Part shown: piece by piece, positions 7,333 to 57,700 of the stretch | Numbering within the stretch: position 1 is the first letter of the stretch | Layout of the letters: each line of letters begins with the position of its first letter | Source: Sialis fuliginosa | Lineage: Eukaryota; Arthropoda; Insecta; Megaloptera; Sialidae | DNA: 64,000 nucleotides | Assembly: GCA_961205875.1 (NCBI GenBank) | Contig: OY540816.1 | Span: 248,001 to 312,000 of the forward strand | Direction: 5' to 3' | Position numbers and translations under genes: made by a program | The notes under the pieces: generated by a model | What the model was told of the DNA's origin: nothing | The model's input: only the letters and a program-made list of their open reading frames with translations | Databases searched by the model: none

Positions 7333-8153
7333 AAATACTGACTCATTTTTGACACGATTCGGCTTTTGCGTACCATAATTTTACTCATCTTGAACTAATT
7401 GCGTTAATTAATTCTTTCGCAGCGGGAACCGTACGAAATTGTAAAATAATTTTGTGTCTCGCATGCTGGAATCGAATTAATATGCAAGCAAAATTTGATC
7501 AATCGGTCCGGAAAAACGGTTCGATTGATCAATTTCAAATTTTACACGACTGTTGGGGGTACATTAAGCTGTAAAATCACCTGGCAACATTAATCTTCCC
7601 ATCAATATTTGTAAAGTAGCGATAGATTTACTAAAAGACCATAAAATGTCATTTTTTTGTTCTTTTTCAAACTAATGGTGAGGGTAAAAAAAATTTTTTT
7701 CTAATAAAGTCATGAAAGGGTCTTGTAGGAAATTTATTCAAGTTTTTAAAACTGCTGTTAAATTTACTGTTTAATCATTAGTTGCTGATATATTGATGAT
7801 CGAAGACAAAAGTATCATTTTTCATTTAAAGTCAGATAATTAAAATTAAAGCTGAATAAACAAGTTAACTGACCAATGCATTGGTTTAACTGAAAAAAAA
7901 ATTTCCGAGCCCGCGGTCCCTTAAAATTTTTTAAAAAAATTGGAAAATTTTTGTGTCCCATTATTTCTTATGATTGCGCAATAACCGTAACTCAAAAAAA
8001 ATTATGCTAAAAAATCTCAAAACTAGAAACTTGAAGCTTTAAAATGCTTTTTTATTTATTTCGATACGACCATTTTTCACAAAGATACAGCACTTCAAAA
8101 AACACCCCAAAAAAATGTTTCATTTCTTGTTCCTTTAATTGTTTGGATGAGTG
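7333..8153. mobile_element. Single arm of the CACTCATCC palindromic element
   Basis: This stretch matches one arm of the element at 22353-24107. It ends TTTAATTGTTTGGATGAGTG followed by TA. The other arm is absent, so this is either a truncated copy or the unfolded parent form. It includes the shared words GATCAATCGGTCCGGAAAAA and TTTCGCAGCGGGAACCGTAC. Confidence 0.7.
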
Positions 8154-8505
8154 TATAATGGCCTCTATAATCCTAAGTCAGGTACGAAACGCGGACAGCT
8201 GTACCATGAATTTCTTAATTTTTACCTGGTTGGACTATACGTGTGCATTTTTCAATAGGAAACCGATCAAATCGTGGGGATCCAAGAGGATTTTTGCAAA
8301 TTTTCTTTAGGAAAAAAATTATTCAACAAAATGTACGTCGATAGGTGCCCGGGTACCTCTTTGGTTACACAAGGGTTAATAGGGTATTTGACAGTATGAT
8401 ATGATATATTTATTTCATGTGGATATACAAATTTATTGTTATGGCACGGATTATTCTCAGGTAATTGTAATTAATTACAAATCTTATATTATCAGGATTT
8501 CAATA
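8154..8505. other. Short unassigned AT-rich spacer
   Basis: Sequence between two mobile elements. No coding, RNA or repeat signal is recognised. Confidence 0.4.
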
Positions 8506-8983
8506 ACACTAGTCGACAGAGGTTTTGCACATGATATATTATGATATAGGAGAGTTCAGAGATTTCAGAACCGCTTTCGGATACTCTCCAGCACGTCAGG
8601 TTTTTTTTTTAAACTGAATTTTTGTAAATAAAGTCATTACAGAAACCGTTCCTGAATTGATATTTTTGTTTTCAAAACTGCGTTGAAAAGAAGAAGGATA
8701 TAGCTTTCCAACGCGCCATATAGCAGTCAAATCGAACCATTCGTTCTCGCCCTATGCTTACAACTATGTGCAATTTTATCGAAAAAAATGTGGTTTTTTC
8801 ACATTTCGACCATTTATTTGTTTTATGAAAAAATGTTTATCACATAAAAATGTCCATTTTTATTCATAGATCTAATAGAGGAGTCTTCCTAGGGTATTCC
8901 TGTTTAAATATCCCCTTGTGCGATAAATAGAACCCAAGATATGACAATTAACGTGAGGCAACCGATTTTTGTGTTTTTTCATT

Positions 8984-9330
8984 TTAATGCATTTTATTAA
9001 GTATTATCAAAAATTTGTTATAATTACATGTGTAATGTTGTTTTGTGAATATTAATATATCATATTCCAATTGTTTTTTTTTCCATTTAACGCCTTGATA
9101 GTCTGGTGTTGCTATCAAGTAACGATTTAAAAGTGCACGAGTGTCTCGGAGCAGTAACCAACAAAACTCTCCTAGCATTTTGGGTACATACAGCCCATTG
9201 AAGCGGTCTTCCATGTCGCTTATATCTTGGTGGAAACGTTCACCGTGCTCATCTGAAAATTCACCCAAATTGTCTAGACAAAATCAATGTGCGATTTGAG
9301 AAAATGCATTTTAAGCATCAAGTTGGATCC
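8984..9330 (-). pseudogene. Inverted copy of transposon-type ORF 3' part
   Basis: The minus strand reads through MGEFSDEHGERFHQDISD at about 9268-9215 and continues with a VPKMLGEFCWLLLRDT-like segment to a stop at 8984. The SDEHGERFHQD core is one I recall from large uncharacterised transposon-associated proteins of arthropods and cnidarians; I cannot name a biochemical function. This arm keeps the stretch between the core and the C-terminal segment better than the plus-strand copy. It is part of the left palindrome arm, so it is a duplicated fragment and not a gene of its own. Confidence 0.65.
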
Positions 9331-9519
9331 AATTGTGTTGAAATTTTCCAACATTATTTTTACTAGTTGTTTGTAGTTTGGGATTCTAACATTTACATAT
9401 ATGAAAAATACAATTTACAAATAGTCGAAAATTTGAAGATAATATCCCTATTAATGGGCTTACAGAGCGGTTTTACTAAGCATAACTGATTTTTATGCCT
9501 CTACGACAGTAAAGCACGT

Positions 9520-10141
9520 AACGAGCATTGGACGAGAGAAACATGGCCCTATAGAAGTATACGCCAGGTGTTTTCAGTGTCAAATCCAGACTACTTGTTC
9601 CCAAAGAGAAAATAATTTTACCACCATTACACATTAAATTGGGCTGATGACCCAATTCGTCAAAGCAGTTGGCAACACAAACACCGCTGCCATCGACTTC
9701 TTGGACGGCATGTTTCCTCCCTTCAATAGATTCAAAGTAGAAGAGGGAATTTTCGTTGGTCCCCAAATAAGAACAGCTTTCCATTCAGAAGAATTTCGTA
9801 ATCTTTTAACTGCCAAACAACAAATCGCATGGGCCTTTTTCGAGGCTGTTATTCACAGTTTTTTGGGTAATGTTAGAAGCCCAAACTACAAACAACTAGA
9901 AAAATTTCCACATAATTGGATCCAACTTGATGCTTAAAGTGCATTTTCTCAAATCGCACATTGATTTTTTCCCAGATAATTTGGGTGATTTTTCAGATGA
10001 GCACGGTGAACGTTTCCACCAAGATATAAGCGACATGGAAGATCGCTTCATGTACCCAAAATGCTTGGAGAAAAAAGAAAAGGGCCGAAAAAACACTTTT
10101 AAATCGTTACTTAACAGCAACACCAGACTATCAAGGCTTTA
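9520..10141 (+). pseudogene. Broken transposon-type ORF with SDEHGERFHQD motif
   Basis: The order of conserved blocks fits one ancestral protein. A WPYRSIRQVFSVSNPDYLF-like segment starts near 9532, followed by ILPPLHIKLG near 9614-9643. A frame change precedes LMTQFVKAVGNT (9644 on), then EEGIFVGPQIRTAFHS and FLGNVRSPNYKQLEKF. A second frame change leads to LKVHFLKSHIDFFPDNLG and FSDEHGERFHQDISDMEDRF (to about 10048). A deletion and frame loss follow, with a stop at 10140-10142. Stops and frameshifts make it non-functional. I recognise the family only as an uncharacterised protein spread with mobile elements; assignment to a transposon class is inference. Confidence 0.65.
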
Positions 10142-10836
10142 AATGGAAAAAATAAATAAAATTGAATATGATATATTAATATTCACAAAACAACATTACA
10201 CATGTAATTATAACAAATTTTTGATAATACTTAATAAAATGCATTGAAATGAAAAAACCCAAAAATCGGTTGCCTCACGTTAATTGTCATATCTTGGGTT
10301 CTATTTATCGCACAAGGGGATATTTAAACAGGAATACCCTAGGAAGACTCCTCTATTAGATCCATGAATAAAAATGGACATTTTTATGTGATAAACATTT
10401 TTTCATAAAACAAATAAATAGTCGAAATGTGAAAAAAAAACACATTTTTGTCGATAAAATTGCACATAGTTGTAAACATAGGGCGAGAACGAATGGATAG
10501 ATTTGACTGCTATATGGCGCGTTGGAAAGCTATATCCTTCTTCTTTTCAACGCACTTTTGAAAACAAAAATATCAATTCAGGAACGGTTTCTGTAATGAC
10601 TTTATTTACAAAAATTCAGTTTAAAAAAAAACCTGACGTGCTGGAGAGTATCCGAAGGCGGTTCTGAAATCTGTGAACTCTCCTCTATCATAATATATAG
10701 GTCCGATTTCATGTGCAAAAAACTTTTTGGAATTTGTCGACTAGTGTAATTATAAAATACACAATATCCAAATAATTCATTATTATATTTCACAAAGATC
10801 AATCACAATCGAGCGTCGGACAAAGACTTTCTTAAT

Positions 10837-11158: not shown

Positions 11159-11175
11159 ATTCTATATATTTATGT

Positions 11176-11910: not shown

Positions 11911-12608
11911 CCCGGGAAAAAATTTCAGATCTGAAGTGATCTCGGTTGATCTTCATTTTGGAACAAAAAAGATCTTTGTAGATAAATAAACTTTTTTCTA
12001 CCTTAAATAACAAATTAATACACATATACTATATAGAAACCTTGTTTATAATTTAATCAATTAAAAAAAAATGTACAGAAACGTATTGAATGATATTTGA
12101 GGCCCGTGTATTAAATTAATAAATAAATTCACAATTCACCCCCTGTCACAGATGAAGGGTTGTAATTGGTCTCATTCGATCCAGCGGGAAAAATACTTCG
12201 GGATACTAGGTGAATTTTTCTCTGTTCCGCTACTTATGGTATTCATTATAGAAAATCGTAAATATCTCGACTCCTGTGCTAGATAGAGGGTTGTTTTGCC
12301 CCCCACACCCCTAGTATCCCGAAGTATTTTTCCCGCTGGATCGAATGAGACCAATTACAACCCTTCATCTGTGACAGGGGGTGAGTTGTGAATTTATTTA
12401 TTAATTTAATACACGGGCCTCAAATATCATTCAATACGTTTCTGTACAATTTTTTTTAATTGATTAAATTATAAACAAGGTTTCTATATAGGTAGTATAT
12501 GTGTATTTGTTATTTTAGGTAGACAAAAGTTTATTTATTTACAAAGATCTGATTTGTTCCAAAATGAAGATCAACCGAGATCACTTCAGATCTGAAATTT
12601 TTTCCCGG
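11911..12608. mobile_element. Palindromic element, about 700 bp
   Basis: The ends CCCGGGAAAAAATTTCAGAT and its complement bound two arms (about 11911-12211 and 12309-12608) with a spacer of about 100 bp. The arms contain the same units as the 1-3406 foldback, including CCCCCTGTCACAGATGAAGG and GCGGGAAAAATACTTCGGGA, which links the two families. Confidence 0.75.
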
Positions 12609-12702
12609 GTCCTTTAAATCATATTTTTTAATTTAGTCAAATACCTTATTGTTCTTAAATCATTTTAAACCTATCTAAAATTGTTCTTTTTTGCATATGC
12701 AG

Positions 12703-13619
12703 TAGGGTGGTCCTTATATGGGAGGACGAATTTTGACCGGGCCGCCTCCCAAATCAGCTCCAAATAATTTTTAAAAAATGTGGAAAAAGTTTCAGCCCTC
12801 TATCTTGAAAAATGGCCACTACCAGAAGGGGGTGATTTTCCCATTTAAAATACACGTGTTTTTTCGATTTTTCAAAAACCTGCGTTCTACAGTGTCTTAA
12901 ACTCTTTCTAAAAATCTAGAATACTCATAAAAGCATTCCTGGTACTCATATTCCATATCTAGATGAATAAATTAAATTTGTGATTCAACATTGACAGCTA
13001 TATGGGCCATTTGGCTATTTCATCTAGAGAAAATTTTTAACAATTTTTTTGTACAATTTCAGGATAATTTTGTCAAAAAAATATTTGACAATAAAAACAT
13101 TGATCTTGAAATTAAAAAAAAAATGATTCTAAAATCAAAAAAGATCATTCCATATCAATTTCTAACTGGCACGACCAATTTTTTTTTGTTAATTTTAATT
13201 TTAGAATCAAAATTTTTTATTTCAAAATTAATATTTTCATTGTCAAAACGTTTTTCTCACAAAATTATCCAGAAATTATACAAAAAAAATTGTTGAAAAT
13301 TTTCTCTTGATGAAATGGCCAAATGGCCCATATAGCTGTCAACGTTGAATCACTTTAATTTATCCATCTAGATATGGAATATAAGTACCAGGAATGCTTT
13401 TATGAGTATTCTAGATTTTTAGAAAGAGTTTATGACACTCTAGTACGCAAGTCTTTGAAAAATCGAAAATACACTTGTATTTTAAATGGGAAAATCACCC
13501 CCCTCTGGTAATGGTCATTTTTCAAGATAGAGGGCTGAAACTTTTTCCTCATTTTTTGGAGCTGATATGGGGGGCGGTCCGGTCAAAATTCGTCCTAACC
13601 CCATATAAGGACCACCCTA
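12703..13619. mobile_element. Palindromic element with TAGGGTGGTCC ends
   Basis: The left end TAGGGTGGTCCTTATATGGG mirrors the right end at about 13600-13619. The arms remain complementary through TCATCTAGATATGGA-type words and meet in an AT-rich centre near 13170. A single arm of the same family occurs at about 31010-31395. The 101-residue frame at 12991-13296 spans the palindrome centre and is low-complexity, so it is not called a gene. Confidence 0.8.
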
Positions 13620-13897
13620 ATAGGCAGTGTTGAATCCAAAATGATATTGAAATGGATGGGGAGGAATTACCTCTTCAAAATTCTATAAAAAAATGTCTTA
13701 ATTCTGCTCTGTACTGTAAAATTAAAATTTGTCTGGGGCCCAATGAAACTGTAACGCGCCACTGGTGTCTAGCATTAATAAAATAATAAAAAGTACAGCT
13801 GGGAAAAGTTATTTTCATAAATAAAAATCTGTTTAGCATTATCTGTAAAACATTACATCAAATTTAATTTATTACTGAATTGAGTCACGTTTTACAG
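13620..13897 (+). other. Probable intron end before zinc-finger exon
   Basis: AT-rich sequence ending in a good acceptor, TTTTACAG at 13890-13897. The last 90 bases (for example TGTAAAACATTACA) resemble the end of the intron of the second zinc-finger gene (17776-17836), which supports homology of the two genes on the intron side of the splice site. Confidence 0.55.
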
Positions 13898-14806
13898 GAA
13901 TACTTGGTTATTAAAGAAGAAAACGTACCAGAAACTAGAAGCGAACAACAAGAAAATGAAGATCATGTGATACCAGATTGTGATAATGAAATAATAAACA
14001 AAGAGTCCAGTTTTACTAAGCAACGTTCTCATAAAACTAGTGTAAAATTAGAAAAACATAAATGTGATCAATGCGAGTATAGTAGTAAACGGAAACAACT
14101 TTTGTTACAACATAAACTAAAACATACTACTGAAAGACCTTTTAAATGCGACCTATGTGAATATAGCTGTAAACGCAAAAAACATTTATTAAAACATAAA
14201 TTAACACATATTAATGAAAAACCATTTAAATGCGATCATTGCGATTATAGCTGTAAAAGTAGCAAGAAATTAGCAAAACATAAACTAATACATACTAATA
14301 AAATACCATTTAAATGCTACTTTTGCGATTATAGCTGTAAAAGTAGCTATCTTTTAAGAAGCCATTTACTAACATATACTTGTAAGAAACCATTCAAATG
14401 CGACCATTGCGATTACAGCTGTACAAGTAGCTTTCAGTTAACAAACCATAAAATAACACATACTAATGAAAGACCTTTTAAATGCGACCTTTGCGATTAT
14501 AGCAGTAAAAGTAGCTATCATTTGGCAAGCCATAAACTAATACATACTAATGAAAAACCTATTAAATGCGACCATTGCGATTACAGCTGTAAACGTAGCT
14601 CTCAGTTAACAAGCCATAAACTAATACATACTAATGAAAGACCTTTTAAATGCGACCTTTGCGATTATAGCTGTAAAAGTAGCTATCAGTTAACAAGCCA
14701 TAAACTAATACATACTAATGAAAGACCTTTTAAATGCGACCATTGCGACTATAGCTGTAAAAGTAGCGGGAATTTAGCAAAGCATAAACTATCACTAATT
14801 ATATGA
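13898..14806 (+). CDS. C2H2 zinc-finger protein, terminal exon (gene A)
   Basis: This is a 303-codon open exon in phase 0 after the acceptor at 13897, ending with TGA at 14804-14806. An acidic leader (residues 1-50, with VIKEEN and EQQENED) is followed by nine finger repeats of 28 residues. The consensus is KCDxCDYSCK, a 12-residue loop to the first His, then HxxxH and a TNERPF linker in place of the classical TGEKPY. Finger 4 has Tyr for the last zinc His (HLLTY). Finger 9 lacks it because the protein ends KLSLII, leaving seven intact fingers. Most fingers carry an extra Cys four residues after the second zinc Cys. A DNA-binding nuclear role is inferred from the family. No first exon equivalent to that of gene B was found upstream, where palindromic elements now sit, so the gene may be 5'-truncated. 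Confidence 0.85.
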   Translation, partial: EYLVIKEENVPETRSEQQENEDHVIPDCDNEIINKESSFTKQRSHKTSVKLEKHKCDQCEYSSKRKQLLLQHKLKHTTERPFKCDLCEYSCKRKKHLLKHKLTHINEKPFKCDHCDYSCKSSKKLAKHKLIHTNKIPFKCYFCDYSCKSSYLLRSHLLTYTCKKPFKCDHCDYSCTSSFQLTNHKITHTNERPFKCDLCDYSSKSSYHLASHKLIHTNEKPIKCDHCDYSCKRSSQLTSHKLIHTNERPFKCDLCDYSCKSSYQLTSHKLIHTNERPFKCDHCDYSCKSSGNLAKHKLSLII

Positions 14807-16272: not shown

Positions 16273-16282
16273 GCGCATGCGC
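16273..16282. promoter_or_regulatory. NRF-1-like palindrome upstream of zinc-finger gene B
   Basis: GCGCATGCGC is a perfect palindrome matching the consensus of the NRF-1/EWG family of activators. It lies 56 bp before the ATG at 16339, in an otherwise AT-rich region and without an obvious TATA box. A core-promoter role is inference from position and motif. Confidence 0.5.
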
Positions 16283-16338
16283 GGAATAATGTAGCCATGT
16301 ATTTTAGCAAGTCTGTATTATAATATTACTGTGTTGAA

Positions 16339-17250: not shown

Positions 17251-17836
17251 CATGAAGATTAAAAAAAATTATTTCATATTTTCCTACATTTCTGTAGATC
17301 TAAACTTAGAGGATGATAACAGGGGGGTAAATAGAATTTAATTTTAATTTAAAAAAAATACTTTAAACCTTAAGGGTTCAAATAAGTTCTACATATAAAA
17401 ATTAAGGTGAATTTTATCGTTATCTTGGAATTAACAGTTTTTAAACGTTTTTTTCAATACTTGAAATTGCCACTTTCCTTTTTTTCACTCCTCTTAGGGT
17501 TGTACAACCGCTATCAAAGCACGCTCAAAGTTGTTACTCTTTGGGCTTTGAAACAACACCACAAAAATGATTTTTCTAAATTTTCATATTAATATGACAA
17601 TTTTTAACAGAACTGTGTTACATTGAAAAAGTGTCTCACTAATTGTGACAAGCAGTGTATTGCGCGCTCGTTTCCACTTCGGTAGTAATTTCCCCATTGC
17701 AACGCGTTTTACAACATTCCTGATAGCAAATTATTTAGTGGAGGTCATTGGGATAATATCTTTTTAGTTTTATTTGTAAAACATTACAACACATCTAATT
17801 AAAAATTATATTGACTAACGAATAATCTATTTTCAG

Positions 17837-22352: not shown

Positions 22353-24107
22353 CACTCATCCAAACAATTAAAGGAACAAGAATTTAAACATTTTTTTTGG
22401 GTGTTTTTTGAAGTGCTATATCTTTGTGAAAAATAGTCGTATCGAAATAAAACAAAAAGCATTTTAAAGCGTCAAGTTTCTAGTTTTGAGATTTTTTAGC
22501 ATAATTCTTTTTGAGTTACAGTTATCGCGCAATCAAAAGAAATAGTGGGACACAAAAATTTTCCAATTTTTTAAATTTTTTTTAAGGGTCCTCGAGCTTG
22601 GAAAATTTTTTTTCAGTTAAACCAATGCATTGGTCAGTTAACTTGTTTATTCAGCTTTAATTTGCTTTTTTATTGGTCTCTCTCAATTTTTTTTCGCCGA
22701 GATATTTGTCTTTAAATGAAAAATGATTCTTTTGTCTTCGATCATCAATATATCAGCAACTAATGATTAAACAGTAAATTTAAGGGCAGTTTTAAAAACT
22801 TGAATAAATTTCCTACAAGACCCTTTCATGACTTTATTAGAAAAAATTTTTTTTTTACCCTCACCATTAGTGTGAAAAAATACAAAAAAATTACCTTTTA
22901 TGATCTTTTAGTAAATCTATCGCTACTTTACAAATATTGATGGGAAGATTTTACAGCTTAATGTACCTCCAACAGCCCTGTAAAATTTTAAATTGATCCA
23001 TCGAACCGTTTTTCCGAACCGACTGATCAAATTTTGCTTGCGTATTAATTCGATTCCAACATGCGAGACAATTTTTTTTTACAATTTCGTACGGTTCCCG
23101 CTGCGAAAGAATTAATTAATGCAATTAATTCAAGATGTGTAAAATTATGGTACGCAAAAGCCGAATCGAGTCAAAAATGAGTCAGTATTGTTTCTTGAAA
23201 TGTTTTAAAAATTTTGAAAAAAAAATTCAAAATTAAAAAAAAAATTTTTTTTTTAATTTTTTTCTCCATTTCAAATTTAACAAGTAACTAATGCAAAACT
23301 GTAAATAAAATCAAAAATCGAAAATCGTTTTCTACATTTTGATGATGATTACACAATGTTATGTTCCAGTCTGTTACACAATACACATGTTCCTTTAATT
23401 GTTTTGTAAAACTTTGATCAATCGGTCCGGAAAAACGGTTCGATGGATCAATTTAAAAATTTACAGGGCAGTTGGAGGTACATTAAGCTGTAAAATCACA
23501 TGGCAACATTAATCTTCCCATCAATATTTGTAAAGTAGCGATAGATTTACTAAAAGAACATAAAAGGTCATTTTTTTGTACTTTTTCACACTAATGGTGA
23601 GGGTAAAAAAAAATTTTTTCTAATAAAGTCATGAAAGGGTCTTGTAGGAAATTTATTCAAGTTTTTAAAACTGCCCTTAAATTTACTGTTTAATAATTAG
23701 TTGCTGATATATTGATGATCGAAGACAAAAGAATCATTTTTCATTTAAAGGCAGATATCTCGGCGAAAAAAAATTGAGAGAGACCAAAAAAAAAAGCAAA
23801 TATAAGCTGAATAAACAAGTTAACTGACCAATACATTGGTTTAACTGAAAAAAAATTTACCGGGCCCGAGAACCCTTAAAAAAAATTTAAAAAATTGGAA
23901 AATTTTTGTGTCCCACTATTTCTTTTGATTGCGCGATAACCGTAACTCAAAAAAAATTATGCTAAAAAATCTCAAAACTAGAAACTTGACGCTTTAAAAT
24001 GCTTTTTGTTTTATTTCGATACGACTATTTTTCACAAAGATACAGCACTTCAAAAAACACCCCAAAAAAGGTTTAAATTCTTGTTCCTTTAATTGTTTGG
24101 ATGAGTG
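22353..24107. mobile_element. Palindromic element with CACTCATCC ends, TA target
   Basis: CACTCATCCAAACAATTAAA at the left mirrors TTTAATTGTTTGGATGAGTG at the right, with TA on both flanks, as in Tc1/mariner-type insertions. The left arm is about 840 bp and the right arm about 700 bp; they meet in AT-rich sequence at 23193-23400. Related copies: 7333-8153 (one arm) and 49688-50932 (truncated). No transposase. Confidence 0.85.
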
Positions 24108-24142: not shown

Positions 24143-26217
24143 CAGGGTTACTGGTAATTCGATACATTTCTTTTAAGGGGTAATAGTAGAGATAACAAGT
24201 AACCATTTGAACCCAATATTGCCTTATACAAATGTTAACAGTTACTGAGATATTTAAAATTTTAGAATTTTTCAAAAATATCCCAAATTTCAACTTTAAA
24301 CTCATTTTTTTTTTTTTGAATACACAGATTTTTTTTTATTTTGCTTCTGATACTCAGACAATATGCCGGTACTTTGTTAGAAAGAACAAAATTAGTATAA
24401 TTTACTTAAACTTCGACACAGTGCCTCAAAACTCTAACACTTCGATATTTTTTATAAGTTTTTTTTTGTTTAAAATGCAAATTCTCCAAAAAAATCACTA
24501 ACTAATTTAATGTACAAAATCCTTTAAAAACTGCCTTATCTTTCTAGCTATCCAATGAGATACAAATGTTATTAAAAAAACTCTCTACTTAGGAGGAATA
24601 AGTCTCAGAAACGAAACAGATCGCAAATTGTTAAAATAGCATGCGAGGGTTATTTACACAAACGTGTTGATTTTAACAAAATAAAACAAACATCTGGTTT
24701 GAAAAAAATAACTTTTATTATTTTTACAAATCCTGCTCAATTTGAGAACCTCTATTTCTAATGCAGGCTCTACATCTACGCCGTATTTCAGTCCAGGTGA
24801 CTCTTAATATCAGATTATTTCTAGCTATCCAACGAAATAAAAATGTTTTAAATTTTTACGCATACAATAATAAAAACTACTATCACAGTTAGAGCATATT
24901 AGGATATGATAACTTTATATGAAAAGGATGAACAATTTCACTACGCTCACCATAGCGCTGATGTAGCTGTATTTTGAATTTACCGCTGTCTGTACGCATG
25001 TGAAATTTTTAATTGTTGTGATTTTGTGCAACAATTAAAATGTGTTTTCGTTTGTTTGTTTACTTATCTATGATAGTATCAGTTTTGTCATAGTAGTTTT
25101 TTCAGGGCTTCGAACCGGAACTAAACCGAAAACTGGAAAAACCGTTATTTTTAGCCGAAACGAAAACCGGAACAGAACCGAAATAAAAATATCGGTTTTT
25201 ACGGTTCAGTACATATTAAAATACGCGCGTTAACATGATCTTATTTCCCACTTCAATTGTCGTTCGGACTATCATACAAGTACCATAAAATATTCTAAAT
25301 TATGGTAGAAAAAATTTGTTTAATACAAATATTTTTTTTTAATTAATCCCTCGGAGCTGAACCGAAAAACCGGAAAACCCGTTATTTTTTGCGGAACGAT
25401 AACCGGAACCGAACCGAAATATATTTTTTTACTCGAACCGGAACGAAAACCGAAATGAAAAAAATAACGGTTCGAAGCCCTGGTTTTTATTATTGTATGC
25501 GTAAAAATTTAAAACATTTTTATATCGTTGGATAGCTAGAAATAATCTGATATTAAGAGTCACCTGGACTGAAATACGGCGTAGATGTAGAGCCTGCATT
25601 AGAAATAGAGGTTCTCAAATTGAGCAGGATTTGTAAAAATAATAAAAGTTATTTTTTTCAAACCAGATGTTTGTTTTATTTTGTTAAAATCAACACGTTT
25701 GTGTAAATAACCCTCGCATGCTATTTTAACAATTTGCGATCTGTTTCGTTTCTGAGACTTATTCCTCCTAAGTAGAGAGTTTTTTTTAATAACATTTGTA
25801 TCTCATTGGATAGCTAGAAAGATAAGGCAGTTTTTAAAGGATTTTGTACATTAAATTAGTTAGTGATTTTTTTGGAGAATTTGCATTTTAAACAAAAAAA
25901 AACTTATAAAAAATATCGAAGTGTTAGAGTTTTGAGGCACTGTGTCGAAGTTTAAGTAAATTATACTAATTTTGTTCTTTCTAACAAAGTACCGGCATAT
26001 TGTCTGAGTATCAGAAGCAAAATAAAAAAAAATCTGTGTATTCAAAAAAAAAAAATGAGTTTAAAGTTGAAATTTGGGATATTTTTGAAAAATTCTAAAA
26101 TTTTAAATATCTCAGTAACTGTTAACATTTGTATAAGGCAATATTGGGTTCAAATGGTTACTTGTTATCTCTACTATTACCCCTTAAAAGAAATGTATCG
26201 AATTACCAGTAACCCTG
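24143..26217. mobile_element. Palindromic element, CAGGGTTACTGG ends, 2.1 kb
   Basis: Both ends carry CAGGGTTACTGGTAATTCGA in inverted orientation with TATA flanks. The arms (24143-24895 and 25483-26217) are nearly identical, so the reading frames at 24232-24501 (+) and 25860-26045 (-) are the same sequence read from each arm. The central 590 bp contains a separate nested element at 25103-25482. A shorter copy lies at 31784-32592. Confidence 0.88.
25103..25482. mobile_element. hAT-like MITE nested in palindrome centre
   Basis: It starts CAGGGCTTCGAACCGGAAC and ends with the complement CGGTTCGAAGCCCTG. The interior repeats GAACCGGAACCGAA-type words in both orientations. CAGGG-type termini fit hAT MITEs. 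The flanks AGTTTTTT and GTTTTTAT are only roughly alike, so a target duplication is not proven. Confidence 0.7.
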
Positions 26218-27544: not shown

Positions 27545-27833
27545 CAGGTAATCCTCGACTTATAATTGTCTTTGTCTCTTTCTTACATGCACATATTACA
27601 TAAATGAAACAAACAGTTCCGGGAATTTCCCAAAAATGTAATTTATTATTATTTATGTAGATATTTTTGGGAACCCGCAACTGTTTGTTATGTATAGAAA
27701 ATGCGATTCGCTTCACATCAAGGAAAACGTCCAAAGCAAAAATATGTACATATTGTACGTGTTAACTTACAACTTATTCTATTTACGATCGATGTTTAGA
27801 AACCTATCTCGGTTGTAAGTCGAGGAATACCTG
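27545..27833. mobile_element. Tc1/mariner-type MITE, 289 bp, TA target
   Basis: TA then CAGGTAATCCTCGACTTATA at the left, and AAGTCGAGGAATACCTG then TA at the right. In copy 1 of the duplication only the right third is visible (3407-3492), because a foldback element splits it at ACATATTG. Confidence 0.75.
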
Positions 27834-29931: not shown

Positions 29932-29965
29932 TTATTATATTATAAGGAACTGAAATTGGTGTCCT

Positions 29966-30363
29966 CGCCATGGTTGCTCGAAATCCTCATGTTGGTTCGC
30001 GAACAATTGAACGAGAATCTGGTATTAGTCAGAGGAGCGTACTCCGCATTTTGCATCGTCACAAATTCCATCCATACCATCTTAGCCTTCACCAAGGATT
30101 ACATGGAATGGACTTTTACTAATCACGGGAATGTTAATTTGCGTAACATGCATTTCTGGGTAGTGGAAAATCTTCATTGGCTACGGCAGGTCGAACATCA
30201 GAGACAATGGTCTTTAAATGTATGGTGCGGTATCATAAATGACAAAATTATTGGTCCTTATTTTTTGGACGGATATTTAAATGGCAATAGCTACGCTAAT
30301 TTTCTTGAGCATACATTAAGTCCTTTGTTAGGTTTGGTTACACTAATTTTTCTCTGGACCTTA
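29966..30363 (+). pseudogene. Tc1/mariner-like transposase pseudogene
   Basis: Two frames hold one protein. From about 29973 a reading frame gives NPHVGSRTIERESGISQRSV and RILHRHKFHPYHLSLHQ, the helix-turn-helix DNA-binding region. After about 30105 the neighbouring frame gives FTNHGNVNLRNMHFW, then WSLNVWCGIINDKIIGPYF and a LNGNSYANFLEH segment, the DDE-region fold. The part between them, including the expected TDEA-type first catalytic Asp, is deleted, and the third catalytic residue is beyond the stop at 30361-30363. It is a dead, internally deleted transposase of the Tc3-like type. It starts about 40 bp after the Helitron CTAG end. Confidence 0.75.
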
Positions 30364-31009
30364 TAAATTTGAAGATATTTAAGCTGGTAATAGTTACTGC
30401 CTCAGCCTGTATATAATAACAAGATATAAAATTATTTAGTGTAATTTGAAGCATCCGTATTAAGTATAATTCCGCAATATTTTCTTTTTATCGATATTTC
30501 TTGAAAACGGTTGATCCCATGACAAATGGACAAAGTATATTTTTGTGTATTTTGTGGCATGATCTTCTATAAGAACCCAACTCGGGAAATAATTTAAAGA
30601 ACAAAAAAATATTTGATAAAAATCCCATTGTCTCCATATAACCTTGTAGGTGAGCCAAAAAGTAGGGTCGACCGACCACGGAGAGGAAAGTGGCTAAACG
30701 ACATGATTCCTTATGTAATTTTGGTCGCTGAATCCGAATATGAAATTTATTTTCCTCTAAAGTGACAACGTCATCGAGAAAAACGCAATTTTCATGAAAA
30801 TCGCGAAAAAATAATTTTTCGATTTTTTCGTATTCAACTCGCTGTATCTTGAACAATTATTGCTCGTTTCTAGTGAAATTTTTACAGTATATTTTTGAAC
30901 CATTTTGAAAGAAAACAAGCTGTCACTCGAGTAAAACAATCAATTAGAACCGGAGATACGAATTTTTAAACATTAACAATCCGATTTAGCGAACGTTTGA
31001 CTTCAAACG
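30364..31009. other. Unassigned repeat-like stretch
   Basis: Moderately AT-rich, with overlapping minus-strand frames at 30488-30856 and 30757-30939 that resemble no family I know. The style of sequence (GATTTTTTCGTATTCAACTC, CCGGAGATACGAATTTTTAA) is like the non-coding arms of the palindromic elements nearby. Confidence 0.4.
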
Positions 31010-31395
31010 TTTTTCTGACAAAATTATCCAGAAATTATATAACAATTTTTTTATTTTATTTTCTCGTGATGAAATGACCCAATGACCCATATAGCTGTCA
31101 ACGTTGAATCAGAAGTTTACTTTATCCATCTAGATATGGAATATGAATACCAGGGATGCTTTCATGAGTATTCTAGATTTTTAGAATGAGTTTAAGACAC
31201 TCTAGTACGCAGGTCTTTGAAAAATCGAAAAAACACGTGTATTTTAAATGGGAAAATTCACCCCCCTCTGGTAATGGCCATTTTTTAAGATAGAGGGCTG
31301 AAACTTTTTCCAAATTTTTTTTTAATTATTTGGAGCTGATTTGAGGGATGGCCCGATCAAAATTCGTCCTAACCCCATGTAAGGACCACCCTAAT
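31010..31395. mobile_element. Single arm of the TAGGGTGGTCC palindrome family
   Basis: This matches the right arm of 12703-13619, including TATGGAATATGAATACCAGG and the terminal GTAAGGACCACCCTA. The mate arm is missing, so it is a solo arm. Confidence 0.75.
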
Positions 31396-31783: not shown

Positions 31784-32592
31784 CAGGGTTACTGGTAATT
31801 CGATACATTTCTTGTAAGGCGTAATAGTAGAGATAACAAGTAACCATTTGAACCCAATATTGCCTTATACAAATGTTAACCGTTACTGAGATATTTAGAA
31901 TTTTTTTATTATTGTATGCGTAAAAATTTAAAACATTTTTATTTCGTTGGATAGCTAGAAATAATCTGATATCAAGAGTCACCAGGATTGAAGTACGGCG
32001 TAGATGTAGAGCTTGCATTAGAAATAGAGGTTCTCAAATTGAGCAGGATTTGTAAAAATAATAAAAGTTATTTTTTTCAAACCAGATGATTGTTTTATTT
32101 TGTTAAAATCAACACGTTTGTGTAAATAACCCCCGCGTGCTATTTTAACAATTTGCGATCTGTTTCGTTTCTCAGACTCATTCCTCCTAAGTAGAGAGTT
32201 TTTTTTAATAACATTTGTATCTCATTGGATAACTAGAAAGATAAGGCAGTTTTTAAAAGACTTTGTACATTAAATTAGTTAGTGATTTTTTTGGAGAATT
32301 TGCATTTTAAACAAAAAATCGATGCACTGTGTCGAAGTTTAAATAAATTGTACTAATTTTGTTGTTTCTAACAAAGTACCGACATATTGTCTGAGTATCA
32401 GAAGCAAAATAAAAAAAAACTGTGTATAAAAAAAAAAATGAGTTTAAAGTTGAAATTTGGGATATTTTAGAAAAATTCTAAATATCTCAGTAACGGTTAA
32501 CATTTGTATAAGGCAATATTGGGTTCAAATGGTTATTTGTTATCTCTACTATTACGCCTTACAAGAAATGTATCGAATTACCAGTAACCCTG
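31784..32592. mobile_element. Palindromic element, CAGGGTTACTGG family, deleted copy
   Basis: It has the same inverted ends as 24143-26217, with flanking TATA. Its left arm is cut to about 115 bp while the right arm is nearly complete. The two terminal parts still mirror each other exactly over the AAGGCAATATTGGGTTCAAA segment. Confidence 0.8.
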
Positions 32593-41500: not shown

Positions 41501-42355
41501 CAGGGTGGGGCATTTAAAGTGTTACAGATTATTATCTCAGAGCCATCGCATATTTGAAAAAAATGTTTCAATCAAAAAATGTTTGGTTGTGAGGGGGTAA
41601 TCGAATAGTAATATTTATTTGCTATTTTAAATTGGCCTTCAAGGATATTTGAAGGTCAACATCATTTTTTTAAATAGGAACCTATAATTTTTATTTAGTA
41701 ATTATTATTATTATTATACGCGAAAAAACACGAATCTTTCATTGAAAACTTTTTTTTGAACAACCTAAGCTTTCCAAGGAATTTACAAAAGATTTTGAAC
41801 TTTCATGAATTTTTTACTCAGAAATCATAAACCTTAGAGAAAAAATACAAAATACAAAAAATGTTTATTTTGGTCTAATGAAATTTAGAGAATTATTCTA
41901 GATTTTTTTTAACGTTTCGTATTTTTTTTGTTTTTGCTAAAATAAATAGAAAAAGTTAAAAAAAGTTTATTAAATTTTTAAAATAATTCTCCAAGCTTTA
42001 TTAGATTAAAATAACTTTTTTTCTAAAGTTTATGGTTTCTGAGTAAAAAATTCTTGAAAGTTTAAAATCTCGAATTATTTTGTTAGAAATCTTGGAAAGC
42101 TTAGGTTGTTCATAAAAATATTTTCAATGAAAGATTTGTGTTTCTTGACGTAGAATAAGACTGATAAATAAAAACTATAGGTTCCTATTTAAAAAAATGA
42201 TGTTCAAATATCCTTGAAGGCCACGTTAAAATAACAAATAAATATTACTATTCGATTACCCCTTCACAACCAAACATTTTTTGGTTGAAACATTTTTTTC
42301 AAATATGTGATGGTTCTGAGATAATAATCTGTAACACTTTAAATGCCCCACCTTG
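41501..42355. mobile_element. Palindromic element with CAGGGTGGGGC end, 855 bp
   Basis: The ends CAGGGTGGGGCATTTAAAGT and the near complement ACTTTAAATGCCCCACCTTG are flanked by TATA on both sides. The arms mirror each other to a centre near 41935. No coding content. The CAGGGTG start is shared with other palindromes in this window. Confidence 0.85.
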
Positions 42356-45290: not shown

Positions 45291-45294
45291 TTAA

Positions 45295-48700: not shown

Positions 48701-51700
48701 TTGCCATTTCAGCAGTAGCTTATTCAGTCAGGTGGTGTCAAAGCTTGTTAGAAGGCCTGTTTTAAAGCATTGTCGTAATTAATCAAAAATTATCAATTTT
48801 TGATTCGAATGATGTAGTGAGATGAGAAATGGATCCAATACGACAACCGTAAACATTCAGCACGATGGCTGAACAAGGACGAACCCCCAAAACATATCTC
48901 AAAGCGCATTATTCGTCAAAAGCTGATGGTAATTTGGCACAGATGTGATCTATTATCATTTAATGAAACCTGGATCATCGATCATGGCAGAAGTATACTC
49001 GTACCAAATGATCCAAAAACAGCTTAGATTGGTCAACCGATCGACTCATATCTATTGCACAACAACGGTCAGGAGGTAAAACTACAATAGTTGGAGTTAG
49101 ACGTTCTTCATTATCCACCATACTCACCAGATCTTGCCCCTATTGACTACCACTTGTTTCGAAATTAGGATAACTTTTTTATAGGAAAAAAATATTTCCG
49201 ACAATGCTGTAAAACAGGCCTTCCAAGATTTCATTGACTATTGATTACCAAATTTTTACACCACCGGATTGGACAAGCTACCGTTGAAATGACAAAAGTG
49301 TATTGACAACATGGATTGCATACTTTCATTAATAAAACTATTCCTTGATTTATAAAACATTGATAAACTTTGTTTTTTCTTCTTGTACAAATGCCATACG
49401 TACATATTGTTTATTATTTTAGGTATATACAAACTCTTTGTGAGTCTTCTTGATGCTAATGTAGATACTCTTAAGACAAGACCGGTAAAAATATGGATTG
49501 GACCGAAACTTTGCATCGTTATTGCTAAACCTGAATATTTACAAACAATTTACACTTCGTCAAGCACAATTGAGAAGGCAATATATTTTTATAAAAACTT
49601 AAGCGACATTTTAGGAGAAACATCCTATTTATATAAGCCAGGTGAATATATTTTTGTAATTTATTATTCTAACTTTCAAGAAAACTACACTCATCCAAAC
49701 AATTAAAGGAACAAGAAATTAAACATTTTTTTGGGGTGTTTTTTGAAGTGCTGTATCTTTGTGAAAAATGGTCGTATCGAAATAAAACAAAAAGCATTTT
49801 AAAGCGTCAAGTTTCTAGTTTTGAGATTTTTTAGCATAATTTTTTTTGAGTTACGGTTATCGCGCAATCAAAAGAAATAGTGGGACACAAAAATTTTCCA
49901 ATTTTTAAAATTTTTTTTAAGGGTCCTCGAGCTTGAGAATTTTTTTTTCAGTTAAATCAATGCATTGGTCAGTTAACTTGTTTATTCAGCTTTAATTTGG
50001 TTTTTTTTGGTCTCTCTCAATTTTTTTTCGCCGAGATATCTGCCTTTAAATGAAAAAGGATTCTCTTGTCTTCGATCATCAATATATCAGCAACTAATGA
50101 TTAAAAAGTAAATTTAAGGGCAGTTTTAAAAACTTTAATAAATTTCCTACAAGACCCTTTCATGACTTTATTAGAAAAAAATTTTTTTTACCCTCACCAT
50201 TAGTGTGAAAAAGTACAAAAAAATGACCTTTTATGTTCTTTTAGTAAATCTATCGCTACTTTATAAATATTGATGGGAAGACTAATGTTGCCAGGTATTT
50301 TTACAGCTTAATGTATCCCCAACAGTCCTGTAAATTTTGAAATTGATCCATCGAACCGTTTTTCCGAACCGATTGATCAAATTTTGCTTGCGTATTAATT
50401 CGATTCCAGCATGCGAGACAAAATTATTTTACAATTTCGTACGGTTCCCGCTGCGAAAGAATTAATTAATGCAATTAATTCAAGATGAGTAAAATTATGG
50501 TACGCAAAAGCCGAATCGTGTCTTAAATTTTTTGGAATTTTTTTTCTCCATTTCAAATTTAACAAGTAACTAATGCAAAACTGTAAAAAAAATCAAAAAT
50601 CGAAAATCGTTTTTTTCATTTTGATGATGATTACACAATGTTATGTTCCAGTCTGTTACACAATACACTTGTTCCTTTAATTGTTTTGTAAAACTTTGAT
50701 CAATCGGTCCGGAAAAACGGTTCGATGGATCAATTTCAAAATTTACAGGACTGTTGGGGATACATTAAGCTGTAAAAATACCTGGCAACATTATCAATAT
50801 TTATAAAGTAGCGATAGATTTACTAAAAGAACATAAAAGGTCATTTTTGTGTACTTTTTCACACTAATGGTGAGGGTAAAAAAAAATTTTTTTCTAATAA
50901 AGTCATGAAAGGGTCTTTTAGGAATGGGGCCACCTCGGGAGTATACAGTGCGTTCACGATGAATGAAACAAATTCGTTTAAAATTCAGGTAATTATTTTG
51001 TGCAAAAACGCTCAGACACGTCGATTCGTATTTTTAGTTGCGGATTTTTTGACATAAGAAAATTGTATACAGGGTGTCTCAAGAAGAACATAAACAGTCA
51101 TCATTGATTTTTTTAAATGGGACACCCTATATATTATGCCATTTTTGAATTGTACGATGTATTTTGAATACTTTTTGTACAACATATCATATCTCTAAAA
51201 TCAGCGGTTTTCGGAATAATGACGTTTGAAAATTGACATTTTGAAATACACACTTACAAGTCAAATAAAATGTTTAAATTGAAGAAATACACCTTGAATT
51301 TTTTTCTAAAACTAACAAAAACAACCTGGTATTGCAAAAAAAAAAAACAGAAAAAAAGTTCAATATTTTTTTTGCAATACCAGGTTGTTTTTGTTGGATT
51401 TAAAAAAAAATTCAAGGTGTGTTTGTTCAATTTAAACATTTTATTTGACTTGTCAGGGTGTATTTCAAAATGTCAATTTTCAAACGTCATTATTCCGAAA
51501 ACCGCTGATTTTAGAGATATGATAAGTTATACAAAAAGTATTCAGAATACACCGTACAATTCAAAAATGTGCATAATATATAGGGTGTCTCATTTAAAAA
51601 AATCAATGATGACTGTTTATGTTCTTCTTGAGACACCCTGTATACAATTTTCTTATCTCAAAAAATCCGCAACTAAAAATACTAATCGACGTGTCCGAAC

Positions 51701-54700
51701 GTTTTTGCACAAAATAATTACCCGAATTTTAAACGAATTTGTTCCTTTCATCATGAACGCACTGTATTATTTCAAATAAAAAAAAATCGTCCAAATCTGT
51801 GCATATTTGTTGGAGTTATGCCTGAGCATGCATAAAAAAATATATTGTCGAATTGAGAATCTCCTTCTTTTTTTGAAGGCAAAAAAGTTATCGATAACAG
51901 TATCAACTTCGTCCTGGACGCTAATATTACATTTGCAATATTTTTTTCAGCTTCATTATGGAAACCGCATCGTAAACTTTATCAAACGGTTTTTACAAGC
52001 ATTAAATGTTCTAACAAAGTCAATTACATGGGGACAATATGCACTGAGTATCTAAAGGAAAATGAAAGTCAAATATCAAATAAAAACTTGAGTTTCGAAA
52101 ATGTGTCTGATATGTTAAATGTGATGGTTGGGAAAATGGTTTGTTGTAAGTAATATTTTTTTTTACTATATAATATACAAGCTGTGCCCGCGGCTTCGGT
52201 CGCGTTGTATAATTTTTTTATGTTAGCAGCACAAATAATATTTTAAGACATTTTTTTGCTTTTTATTTATTAGATATACAAAATCGTAAATATCTCGGCT
52301 CCTATGTTTGTTATTCCTTCTAAAACCCCCTTTTCCCATAGTATTTTTCCCGCCAGATCGAATGAAAGTATTTACAACCCTCCATATGTGACAGGGGATG
52401 CTATATTAAATTATTCTTTTTTCTGTTTTTTCTTTATAATATAAAATTGTAAATATCTCGGTTCTTATGCGAGATAGGGGATTGTTTGTCCTCCAAAATT
52501 CCCCTCCCCCAAGTATTTTTCCCGCCGAATTGAATGAAAGTAATAACAACCCTTCATACGTGACAGGGGATGCAATATTAAATTTATTATAATCTATTAT
52601 ACGTATTATAAATTTTATTCAATTTCGCGATAACGGCAAAAAGTCAATTTTTTTTAATAATAATACATTTATAGATCTTGGCTTCTGGGTGTAAGCCGCG
52701 TCGGTTTGGTCGTGTTATCGGCCAACGTTTCGTCACACATTGCAGTGGACATCTTCACCGCGGAAGCCTCAAGACTTGTATAATAATACATTTAATTAAA
52801 CACCTTTTTGGCAGGCTTTGCGCTGTCATACCGCTCTTATTTTGTTTGTATGGTCTTTAACCGTCAATTAATATAAAACTTATTTAAATCCACGATAACG
52901 GCAAATTTACTGTTACCGACTCTCGATCTATTAGATATACGGTATCACGGACTTTATTTTAGATCTATTGTTTCTACACAAAGAGCGCGCTGGCGGCAAA
53001 CTTTTATCCGATTTAATTTAATATTATCATCACTGCTTATTCCTTATGTCACCTAACTTAATAAAATATATCCTATATATAGTTCTAAGCGCACTAACGG
53101 ACAGACAGACAGACGTTGAGCTTTATATGTAGGTACTACATACCGGGTGTTCCAGACCACCCGTCCACTATGTTTTACGCCCAAACTATTGAAGATAAAA
53201 ATATAGATGATAAAAAATTTACTATTGTATATTGACCCTAAAGAATTTCAATAAAATATTTTCAACCCTCTAAAACTTGGAGGGTAGTTTGAGGGGCAAA
53301 TGCCCGTTTCTCAGCAAAATCAAATGGAATACTACATCTAAAAGTACATAATTTTAAAGATCGTAAAAAGTAAGAATCTTTTGTAAAAAAATTTTTTTCA
53401 TACATTCAATTGTTTAGAAAATATGCCGACTTGTTCCCAAATTTCAGGGTTTTAATAAAAGTGCTCTAGTTTCGTTAAATATTAATGAAATTTTATTTTT
53501 AAAATTTGCTTTGAAAGTAGAAATAATGAGCTTTCTAATGATGTATGATTATTTGAGATTTGGATAGTTTAAAGTGTCATACGCGACATGTCAAAAATGC
53601 AAAAGTTCAATCCCAAATAATTCAAAATTTTTGAATAGAATGATGTATCCAGTCATTAGAAGATTTGAGCTAGAAAAAAATGACGGAGTACATTTTTTTC
53701 AAGAAATATTTTATAAGAATTATAATAATAAATAACTGTATTATCATAATTTATCTATTACAGTTAACGTAATGGACACAAAAGTTATCGATTCAAACAG
53801 AATATTCAAATATATGAAAGGAGCACATATGTAAGTATTACTGGAAAACGGAGAACCTATGGTTTCTTTGTCATTTAAATCAAATATATAAAACCTTTAG
53901 CCACAAAAACACGATGTTACTTGCCAAGTCTTTCAATTTTACAAGATGTCCTCATCAGAAACCTAACAGTTACAGTTGGCTATATATATTTTTAATTCGG
54001 TCGAGGTCAAAGTTATCTGAAGGTGAAGTTTTTTTTGAAGAATCGAATTTTACACAAAAAAAGATACAACTTTTTTTATATTTCGGCAAAAAAATGTGCG
54101 GAAATACACGTATAAAGTTCTAGGAGCTTTATCGCATTAAAATAAGCATTTTTGTTCACTTGAAATTTTTCTGTAAATTCGATATCCTACGAAATAAAAA
54201 ATCATGAACTTTTTTTTTGATATTTCGAAGTCTAGACAAAAAAAATCACCTGTGTGCAGTTAACACCACAAGTTTCGAAAAAAATAGAGTTATGGAGTTC
54301 TTTAATATTTTGAAAAAGAGTTCTGTCAATTTTACCTCCCCCTAAAAAAAAATGATTTAAAAAAAACGGTATAGTTTCGGCATTGACATAATTTCATTTT
54401 TGTAATTTCTGTTTAAAGTTCTTGAAAATGAACATAATTTCTCATTAACCCTTTCCTGGAAAACGAACAGATAAAAAATTATTTAAATTAAAAATATTTC
54501 TTTAAAGTTCAAGAATTTTGGTCATTTAATTATTCAAACTTAAGTGTACGTTTAAATTAATTAATGATAATATTAATTAATTAATTATTAATTAGAAATT
54601 ACGATCATTTTTTAAAGAAAATTGTAACCTTTTCAACATCTTGTAATTTTCTAATTACAAAAAAAAATTATTCTCTGCTAAAAATAGTTTTGGTTAGGTT

Positions 54701-57700
54701 ATTGCGATATTACATCAAACATTTATAAAATTGTATTCTTTGTACAGGATGTATCAAAACTCTGAACCCAATTTTTTTTCAAAATATTCAAATGAAACAT
54801 CCAATATCAATTCTAAACACATTTTATAAACTATGTTCTATATCCAGCCGCTAAAAAGTTATTTGTACATTTAATATAATTTGAATGATATGTTACAACT
54901 TTGTATTAACGCCGCTGGTGGACATTTTGAACAAAGAAATTATCTTTTGTGCATCATTTTGTTTATTTAATTTCTAGATTTTATGATGTTAAAGTTTGTA
55001 AGTTCTAGCGAATTGTTTTATGGATTATATATTATTTTATATATGGATTTATACAGGGTGGGGCAATAGTGTGTGGTAGTTCGATAGCTCGTAGACCATA
55101 ACAGATAAAAAAAAATTTCTAATGCAGATGTAAACTGTGGGTAAATGTGCATACATAGAAATTATTTTCAAATATACAGGGTGCTACAAAAAAGTGTGGC
55201 ACGCTTAAGGTAATTTTTTTTAAATGGAATGCCCTGATTATTTTTGCATATTTAAAACTTCTCTTGGGATGTTTATTCATATCAAAAATATTAGCCCCAT
55301 CTGATGTCCAGTTTAGACATAATAATATATTTTTCAAAAAAATTGACTTTTACATTACTCCACTTAAAAATTCACCACTTCCGCGGCCGGAGCTTTGAAG
55401 ACGAAATTAAATATGGACCTTATTGTAGGATGTTGGTGAGTACTTTTGCTTCAATATCTTAGAGCCACCATGTACAGGGTGTTCAAAATTAATTTTCAAA
55501 TTTTGAGAACTTCAAAGTTATTTTTCTCAACTATTTCAAATGGAACACCCTATATATTTTTTAATGATGTTATGTAGAATTACATAACGAACATTTTTTG
55601 TTTGTTCATCCTTATGGTTATTTGTAACCATTTTTGAATTATTGAGCAAAAAGTACAAAATTCAGCAATATTTACTAAAAAAAAATATTTTTTTTCAAAT
55701 AAAATAAAATACCATGTACAGTATGTTCATGTTGCCCATAAAAACAGCTTGAATTTTTTTCAGCTAGCAAACAGATGCTTTATTATTTTATTGAACACAA
55801 ACAACCAAAATAATTTACAATCATATAAATTCATTAATGAGCAGTGTGAAATTGAGACAGAAACATAAAATGCTGTTTTATGGGCAACATGAAGAGCCTG
55901 TACATGGTGTTTTATTTTATTTGAAAAAAAATTAATTTTTTTTAGTAAATATTGCTGAATTTTGTACTTTTTGCTCAATAATTCAAAAATGGTTACAAAT
56001 AACCATAAGGATGAACAAACAAAAAATGTTCGTTATGTAATTCTACATAACATCATTAAAAAATATATAGGGTGTTCCATTTGAAATAGTTGAGAAAAAT
56101 AACTTTGAAGTTCTCAAAATTTGAAAATTAATTTTGAACACCCTGTACATGGTGGCTCTAAGATATTGAAGCAAAAGTACCCACCAACCTCCTACAATAA
56201 GGTCCATATTTAATTTCGTCTTCAAAGCTACGGCCGCGGAAGTGGTGAATTTTTAAGTGGAGTAATGTAAAAGTCTATTTTTTTGAAAAATATATTATTA
56301 CGTCTGAACCGTACATCAGATGGGGCTAATATTTTTGATATGAATAAACATCCCAAGAGATGTTTTAAATATGCAAAAATAATCAGGGCATTCCATTTAA
56401 AACAAATTACATTAAGCGTGCCACACTTTTTTGTAGCACCCTGTATATTTGAAAATAATTTCTATGTATGCGCATTTACCCACAGTTTACATCTGCATTA
56501 GAAATTTTTTTTTATCTGTTATGGTCTACGAGCTATCGAACTTCCACACACTATTGCCCCACCCTGTATAATATGATCATTTATTATTATAATTATATTG
56601 TTTTTATAAAATGTGTTTAGAATTGAATAGGCAATTCGAAAATTTAGAAAAAATAGGTTCTGAGTTTTGATACACCTGTACAAAGAATACAATTTTGTTA
56701 ATGTTTTATGTAATATCGCAATAATAGAACATATACTAACATTATTTTTTTGGTAGAGAACAACATTTTTTTATTGTAATTAGAAAATTACAAGTTGTTG
56801 AAAAGATTCCAATTTTCTTACATAAATGGTCACCCTTACGGACTTCGTGTATATAACTCATCTGTTTAGTAAATAATCATATTTTAGCTATATCGATGGT
56901 CTAAGGATTCTAAGGCACTCTAAGATCATAACATAAGTGTAAATTTTTAATTTTAAATGGACAGAATATTAATAATCATGTTACGAATATACCATCGATA
57001 TTAGGTACTATTTTATATGTATTAATTAAAAATGAACTATCCATCTAGGTAACTGATAAGAGTAAGACTCGGAAACACTTGCCTTTGATAATAAAAATGT
57101 TTGTAATTTATTCATAGATCAATCGGTACATCATGTCAGCGAATGTTAAAGTTTTGGTTACACTTTGATTTTATCTACAAGTTTTCTAACCAATATAAAA
57201 TACAAAAGTATCATCAAGATCAATGTAATGAATTTACAACTTGGGTAAGAAATTATCAAATATTAACATATATAAATACGCCATAATTTTTAATCGACTT
57301 CAAAAAAGGGGAGGTTCTCAATTCAATCGATATCTAGTTTAGGGGAGTCATATTAGTTTATCACTTCGGAAAAATTCTTCGACCGATGACAAGTGTGTAG
57401 AATAACATATCAAAATGTATCCGCGAGAAAGTGGGTGCTAAAGTTTTTATTTAAAAATTTACATGCAAAAATGCAGTTTTTTGCTAATAACTTTTTAAAT
57501 TTAATTTTTGTTAAAATTCGAAAAAACAGAAAATTTTACAAAAGAAACATATATAATACCTATTTTTTGGGTTCCAAAGAGACCCTATTAATCTCACTTT
57601 GCTAGAAACTTGAAATTTTTACTGAACATGTAAAATGATGCCCTCTAGTAAAAGATGTACAAATATATTGAAAAAATATTTTTTAGGGGGGGGGGGGGGC

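Follow-up and report, generated by a model that had tools for sequence, protein, structure and literature searches.

The window, by which we mean the whole stretch of 64,000 nucleotides of Sialis fuliginosa DNA analysed here, contains a series of long inverted repeats and, towards its end, an exon of a P450 gene. The inverted repeats were located by BLAST self-comparison of the window; at an equal BLAST threshold, none were found in 20 out of 20 first-order Markov sequences of matched dinucleotide content. The elements and the exon are listed below, with the strand given where one was assigned and with families named after the start of a window member.

7333..8153, minus strand: solo arm belonging to the 22353 family, with its outer end at 8153 and its inner end ~40 bp away from the palindrome-centre position
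11911..12609: inverted repeat with CCCGGGAAAA ends (CCCGGG), without TA flanks, related to the 1-3333 repeat cluster
12705..13617: palindromic TA element with GGGTGGTCC ends, 84.9% identical over its length; older
22353..24107: palindromic TA element with CACTCATCCAAAC ends; arms of ~690 bp, 93.6% identical
24143..26217: palindromic TA element with CAGGGTTACTGG ends; arms of 739 bp, 99.6% identical (one substitution and two gap positions), spacer of 605 bp
25107..25483: nested element with CAGGGCTTCGAACCG inverted ends, in the spacer of the 24143 palindrome; ends set by eye, limits approximate
31003..31391, minus strand: solo arm of the 12705 family, stopping ~73-85 bp from the palindrome-centre position
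31784..32592: short copy of the 24143 family; a left end of ~125-129 bp joined to one full arm, i.e., an internally deleted palindrome
41501..42355: palindromic TA element with CAGGGTGGGGCATTTAAAG left end, 80.5% identical over its length
49688..50924: copy of the 22353 family with a truncated right arm, within a putative P450 intron
50946..51764: palindromic TA element with CAGTGCGTTCA ends; arms of ~400 bp, A/T-rich loop with GTTCAATA, 93% identical over its length; within a putative P450 intron
55054..56566: palindromic TA element with CAGGGTGGGGCAATAG ends; arms of ~660 bp with 15 substitutions in 659 aligned positions; 93.6% identical
58675..58941, plus strand: exon of a P450 gene, matching Pfam p450 at profile positions 272-356; hand-picked pieces at 49.4k, 51.9k, 57.1k and 58.5k are collinear with it

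The original prediction listed nine long near-perfect palindromes in this stretch, six of which stand (50946, 55054, 24143, 22353, 12705 and 41501). All six have TA on both sides, as read directly from the sequence and as had been claimed. The element at 31784 is symmetric only over its ends of ~129 bp, to which one full arm is added, and the copy at 49688 has lost part of its right arm. The third exception, 11911-12609, lacks TA flanks and is therefore a different kind of repeat, outside the palindromic TA class. A CAGGGT start, said to be shared by many of the elements, occurs in only four of the nine (24143, 31784, 41501 and 55054); 50946 starts with CAGTGCG, 22353 and 49688 with CACTCATCC, 12705 with GGGTGGTCC and 11911 with CCCGGG. 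The solo arms at 7333-8153 and 31003-31391 exist as predicted. Further inverted repeats, absent from the earlier list, lie at 222-3333, 8534-10698, 48614-49383 and 61548-62723. Scanning the window against Rfam with gathering thresholds gave no matches.

Other repeats share the window with these elements. Positions 1-3333 are densely packed with repeats in direct and mutually inverted orientation, among them a direct duplication of 1028 bp at 99.5%. Two segments in 3407-6602, 1239 and 971 bp long, recur at 99% and in the same order in 27748-29944, ~24 kb apart, which is a recent duplication or mobile element. Arrays of C2H2 zinc fingers with 84-bp units and long open frames lie at 13868-14803 (7.8 copies) and 17819-19360 (16.6 copies), and a tandem array with units of ~133-135 bp at 46195-47131. 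Within both arms of big palindromes, short CAGGGTG...(AAATGGRACACCC)TATA-like units were seen by eye (51070-51145, 55177-55238 and 55475-55560); these resemble small elements that were nested there beforehand or were copied from one arm to the other.

The P450 exon at 58675-58941 is firmly identified. Adding it to the hand-picked exon chain gave a p450 match over profile positions 37-350 with 99.3 bits, versus 82.3 bits for this last exon alone. The putative upstream exons by themselves had no Pfam match and no P450 among their PDB matches. Because the hand-picked chain without the exon at 58675-58941 gave no p450 match in Pfam, the placement of the 49688, 50946 and 55054 elements in P450 introns is only likely. 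Assignment of the gene to CYP4 was made by eye. Adjoining a putative P450 exon, 48614-49383 carries inverted ends of ~130 bp (86%) and a mariner Transposase_1 fragment (E-value of 2e-4, below the family cut-off), and is a mariner relic.

Abundance, end spacing and target sites

We took exact end patterns from the window elements and searched the 392-Mb assembly (20 contigs) for them, using each reversed pattern as a control. As had been predicted, the palindromes are abundant elsewhere in the genome. Exact ends numbered 656 for the 50946 family, 634 for 41501, 452 for 22353, 253 for 55054, 74 for 12705 and 69 for 24143, whereas the reversed controls gave none for any of the six families.

Convergent ends at most 4 kb apart were paired among the ends listed in contig order (at most 100 per family). 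The 50946 and 41501 families yielded 26 and 16 pairs, each from 100 listed ends, at spacings of 590-873 bp and 713-891 bp, respectively. For the 55054 family, 34 of the 37 pairs from 100 listed ends were spaced by 1498-1539 bp, the others by 933, 1381 and 3452 bp. The 26 pairs from 100 listed ends of the 22353 family comprised five at 494-807 bp, eighteen at 1639-1790 bp and three at 3445-3613 bp, while the 69 ends of the 24143 family gave 22 pairs at 777, 813, 1602-2080 (nineteen pairs) and 3423 bp. Listed paired ends in these five families thus lie mostly at full palindrome spacing, and neighbouring ends within 4 kb in any other orientation were absent from the ends listed for five families. 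Only two pairs were found among the 74 exact ends of the 12705 family, where solo or diverged copies therefore prevail. Under exact matching, the unpaired share of the listed ends ranged from 26/100 (55054) to 68/100 (41501), or about a quarter to two thirds. In the 50946 family, many of the missing partners are present in altered form, since both outer ends are preserved to within 30 nt in 39 of the 44 loci of a position-ordered sample (C1, see below). The best reading of these data is that the mobile unit is the whole palindrome, with several families abundant and dispersed over many contigs.

Long-read sequencing is known to produce chimeric inverted reads, and an assembly or library artefact from such fold-back reads was weighed as a source of the palindromes. 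It is ruled out for practical purposes by the many loci with different flanks, the TA-flanked ends, the fixed family lengths and arms that are several per cent apart.

TA had also been named as the insertion target. For the 50946 family, we joined the flanks of individual elements with one TA and compared the products with all available sequence to find related repeats free of the element. For locus L029, the alignment passes through a single TA with an ungapped junction at eight distinct places, three others being gapped nearby or poor; for L042, it does so at four. The relative of L086 that lies in the window has TT rather than TA at the junction, all relatives of L035 are gapped across it, and some alignments of L036 and L066 have gaps at or near it. 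L066 and L067 represent a single locus, as do L006 and L012. Given the ungapped empty sites of L029 and L042, we read the element of this family as CAGTGCG...CGCACTG with a duplicated TA. The claim thus holds for the 50946 family through its empty sites, and for the remaining families through the TA on both sides only.

As RNA, the 50946 element has a predicted energy of -568.7 kcal/mol versus -149.8 for shuffled sequences (20 shuffles), and a central segment of 1001 nt from the 55054 element reaches a predicted -681.2. Hairpin folding of elements lying in the sense direction of the CYP4 pre-mRNA had been proposed; the folding is indeed predicted, but "sense direction" has little meaning for a palindrome because both strands fold. 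If transcribed in introns, the palindromes are candidate sources of dsRNA and, as had been proposed, might give rise to hairpin siRNAs or RNA editing. One could go further and regard them as host hairpin-RNA loci, producing siRNAs and retained to regulate the P450 gene, as both the very stable predicted hairpins and the position between putative P450 exons would allow. Yet any palindrome folds likewise, and the families number dozens to hundreds of copies spread across many contigs, which makes such host loci very improbable. A special role of the P450 gene was rejected on account of this dispersal. If the palindromes are transposons, effects on host RNA would be possible by-products.

Similarity between arms and loss of arms

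To quantify how alike the two arms of a copy are, we sampled 82 loci of the 50946 family (the window copy and L009-L097, minus eight duplicates), of which 45 passed a filter for two full arms and 41 of these could be oriented by the loop. Arm conversion was sampled in this family only, and the other families are represented by single copies. Partner arms diverged by 4.9% on average versus 6.5% for other arms across the 45 two-arm copies. An arm's nearest relative was its own partner in just 11 of the 90 arms, so this is a shift and not strict pairing. Oriented arms were 6.39% from same-side arms versus 6.57% from opposite-side arms. Common variants were present on both sides, with a mean F of 0.46 over 31 columns; F was near or below 0 at three of these columns (170, 258 and 377), two of them mainly one-sided, and the loop-side columns 413 and 424 differed between sides. 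Rare variants, defined as those in at most two arms, were confined to a single arm in 299 cases versus 8 in both arms. By frequency, F rose from 0.13-0.22 for variants in 2-12 arms to 0.53-0.64 for those that were more common.

At 23 diagnostic sites, the two arms of a copy were discordant in 18.0% of cases versus 38.8% when arms were re-paired at random. None of 2000 random re-pairings was as low as the observed value, the lowest reaching 28.2%. Discordant sites were clustered (0.533 versus 0.191 when permuted). These two-sided common variants in tracts suggest gene conversion between the arms in the 50946 family. In other families, single copies were compared. The arms of the 24143 element differ at one of 736 sites, versus 24-25 mismatches and 44-46 gap positions to the related copy at 31784, and the arms of the 22353 element are 3.7% apart versus 4.7-6.9% to other copies. 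In L098, a copy of the 24143 family, a nested insert marks the boundary between an outer arm portion of 285 bp, where the two arms are 100% identical, and an inner portion of 471 bp, where they are 96.6% identical. The latter value is no higher than the 95-97% at which these inner parts match the window copy.

Similar arms might instead reflect diverged founder palindromes that later underwent ectopic recombination, so that concordance within copies marks founder subfamilies and not ongoing conversion. This is the main rival to tract-wise conversion. Two main haplotype classes are visible, much of F stems from them, and four copies (L018, L030, L032 and L056) have one arm largely of each class, which could be marks of ectopic recombination between elements. 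They recall the chimeric copies 4 and 5 of GalileoN, whose arms are described as ~6% apart within a copy, a difference attributed to ectopic recombination (PMC2775673). Against this, founders that diverged but have matching arms still require a step that changes both arms together, the loop is shared, and concordance extends to the block at columns 140-162 and to inner sites that vary within a class. We regard founder subfamilies as a serious but minority possibility. An GTTCAATG-like loop common to the haplotype classes, together with loop-adjacent sites that differ by side, points to one origin, and on these sequence comparisons we read the pattern as conversion of tracts within source lineages, following a single origin of the palindrome.

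We next determined what had become of copies without two complete arms, using two samples of the 50946 family: a best-arm sample of 39 loci and the C1 sample of 44 loci (L032 and L035 are in both). Two full arms were present in 18 and 31 loci of the best-arm and C1 samples, both ends with an internal deletion in 6 and 8, and a solo arm in 15 and 5, respectively. All 15 best-arm solos stop at or within ~185 nt of the palindrome centre, eight having no second arm and seven retaining 26-185 nt of it beside the centre. The five C1 solos are scattered: one stops at the centre, another passes it by 72 nt, two fall ~45 and 200 nt short of it, and one is a short hairpin. Six of nine inspected solo copies keep the central loop motif (L015, L019, L022, L026, L028 and L047), L026 and L047 with the first bases of the lost arm in addition, while L020, L025 and L027 stop short of the loop. 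In the window, the solo arms at 7333 and 31003 stop near the palindrome centre and the 49688 copy is cut well away from it. Among short forms of the 24143 family, L099 and 31784 have different junctions: an end of ~96 or ~125 bp runs into the opposite arm at its inner end, and by eye a few bases are shared where the two meet. To judge from these junctions, they are independent deletions.

Solo arms had been taken as a sign that palindromes form from single-arm parents. Under this view, palindromes would arise repeatedly by inverted duplication and similar arms would reflect recent duplication, not conversion. The almost identical 24143 arms, the existence of solo arms and single-arm-type copies, and the few pairs in the 12705 family are compatible with it. 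However, the loop is retained in most of the inspected solo copies, the two single-arm-type copies examined differ in their junction, the listed pairs of five families are mostly of full palindrome length, and discordance occurs in tracts rather than all-or-none per copy. The prediction is therefore not supported, and single-arm parentage appears improbable. Solo and short copies seem to fit loss from palindromes better than they fit parents of palindromes.

The outermost 5-25 nt are missing or altered at one end at least in L009, L013, L015, L020, L022, L025, L027, L030 and L043 of the 50946 family, perhaps through failed transposition or simple decay.

A single genome thus holds several abundant palindromic TA families, one of which, the 50946 family, offers sequence evidence for arm homogenisation and for arm loss near the centre. 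With such families, the way in which cells deal with long palindromes can be tested quantitatively in a natural setting.

Transposon class and known systems

The palindromic elements have terminal inverted repeats, as in Tc1/mariner transposons, and their long inverted repeats form most of the element, as in foldbacks. No coding capacity was seen in them. Four of the six families have CAGT or CAGGG ends, which we take to resemble those of Tc1/mariner elements. The target duplication of the 50946 family is TA only and not the 7-10 bp of foldbacks, and a foldback of the Mutator or P type was rejected on this difference.

Genes for transposases of the Tc1 type, with long open frames, are present in the genome, and two such loci (L100 and L101) match HTH_Tnp_Tc3_2 and DDE_3 in Pfam. 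The 16-nt ends of the six families, allowing up to four substitutions, were absent from both loci save for two poor internal matches in L100. L098 and the transposase loci L100 and L101 thus included no autonomous element with the ends of these families. L098, with a 3423-bp spacing, was rejected as an autonomous partner: it carries a nested insert, and no stop-to-stop frame exceeds 96 aa. The insert (L098:344-2070, ~1.7 kb) has CACTATGGGCCAGGAGACC inverted ends and lies in one arm of the 24143-family palindrome. In the window, an ORF at 29932-30366 that resembles a piece of a DDE transposase by eye matched no Pfam family.

Taken together, the palindromes are probably non-autonomous, TA-duplicating cut-and-paste transposons of a Tc1/mariner-like kind that spread as complete palindromes, with arms that convert each other and with solo and short copies as degradation products. 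The entire element body is duplicated in inverted orientation on either side of a short asymmetric loop, and a transposase of the Tc1/mariner type presumably mobilises the elements in trans. The arms of source copies would swap tracts by gene conversion, most simply if one arm templates the repair of the other. Solo arms and short copies would follow from breakage or deletion, often near the palindrome centre to go by the breakpoints, and subsequent end joining. More speculatively, these may be self-correcting transposons, in which mutual repair of the arms, within a hairpin or when the gap left by excision is repaired, keeps both ends of source copies competent for transposition. This would explain why palindromes persist in several families despite their unstable centres, but we put it forward as a tentative idea that is rather doubtful at present.

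In behaviour the families resemble non-autonomous TA transposons, in appearance foldbacks. Caenorhabditis genomes contain palindromic TA and TTAA repeats (the PAL series of Repbase), which by their general description are likewise palindromic, non-autonomous and inserted at TA sites. With MITE-like, non-autonomous Tc1/mariner elements, the window elements share the TA duplication (50946 family), the high copy number and the lack of visible coding capacity. MITE-like elements have short ends around a unique middle, whereas the window elements consist nearly entirely of inverted repeat and measure 0.8-2.1 kb.

Foldback-like elements are parallels in structure. Galileo is a foldback-like member of the P superfamily with 7-8-bp duplications (PMC2775673, PMC4168063), and Tetris, also foldback-like, is placed in Mutator with duplications of 8-10 bp (PMC4079207). 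Arms are reported to be more than 99% alike within, and ~7% apart between, the copies GalileoN-1 and -2 (PMC2775673), and TIR-220 repeats to group by copy in two of three complete Tetris elements (PMC4079207). Likeness of long inverted repeats within a copy is therefore already known, with Galileo and Tetris as precedents. The palindromes described here share with both their very long inverted repeats and the similarity of arms within a copy, but differ in that the 50946 family duplicates TA and not the 7-10 bp described there.
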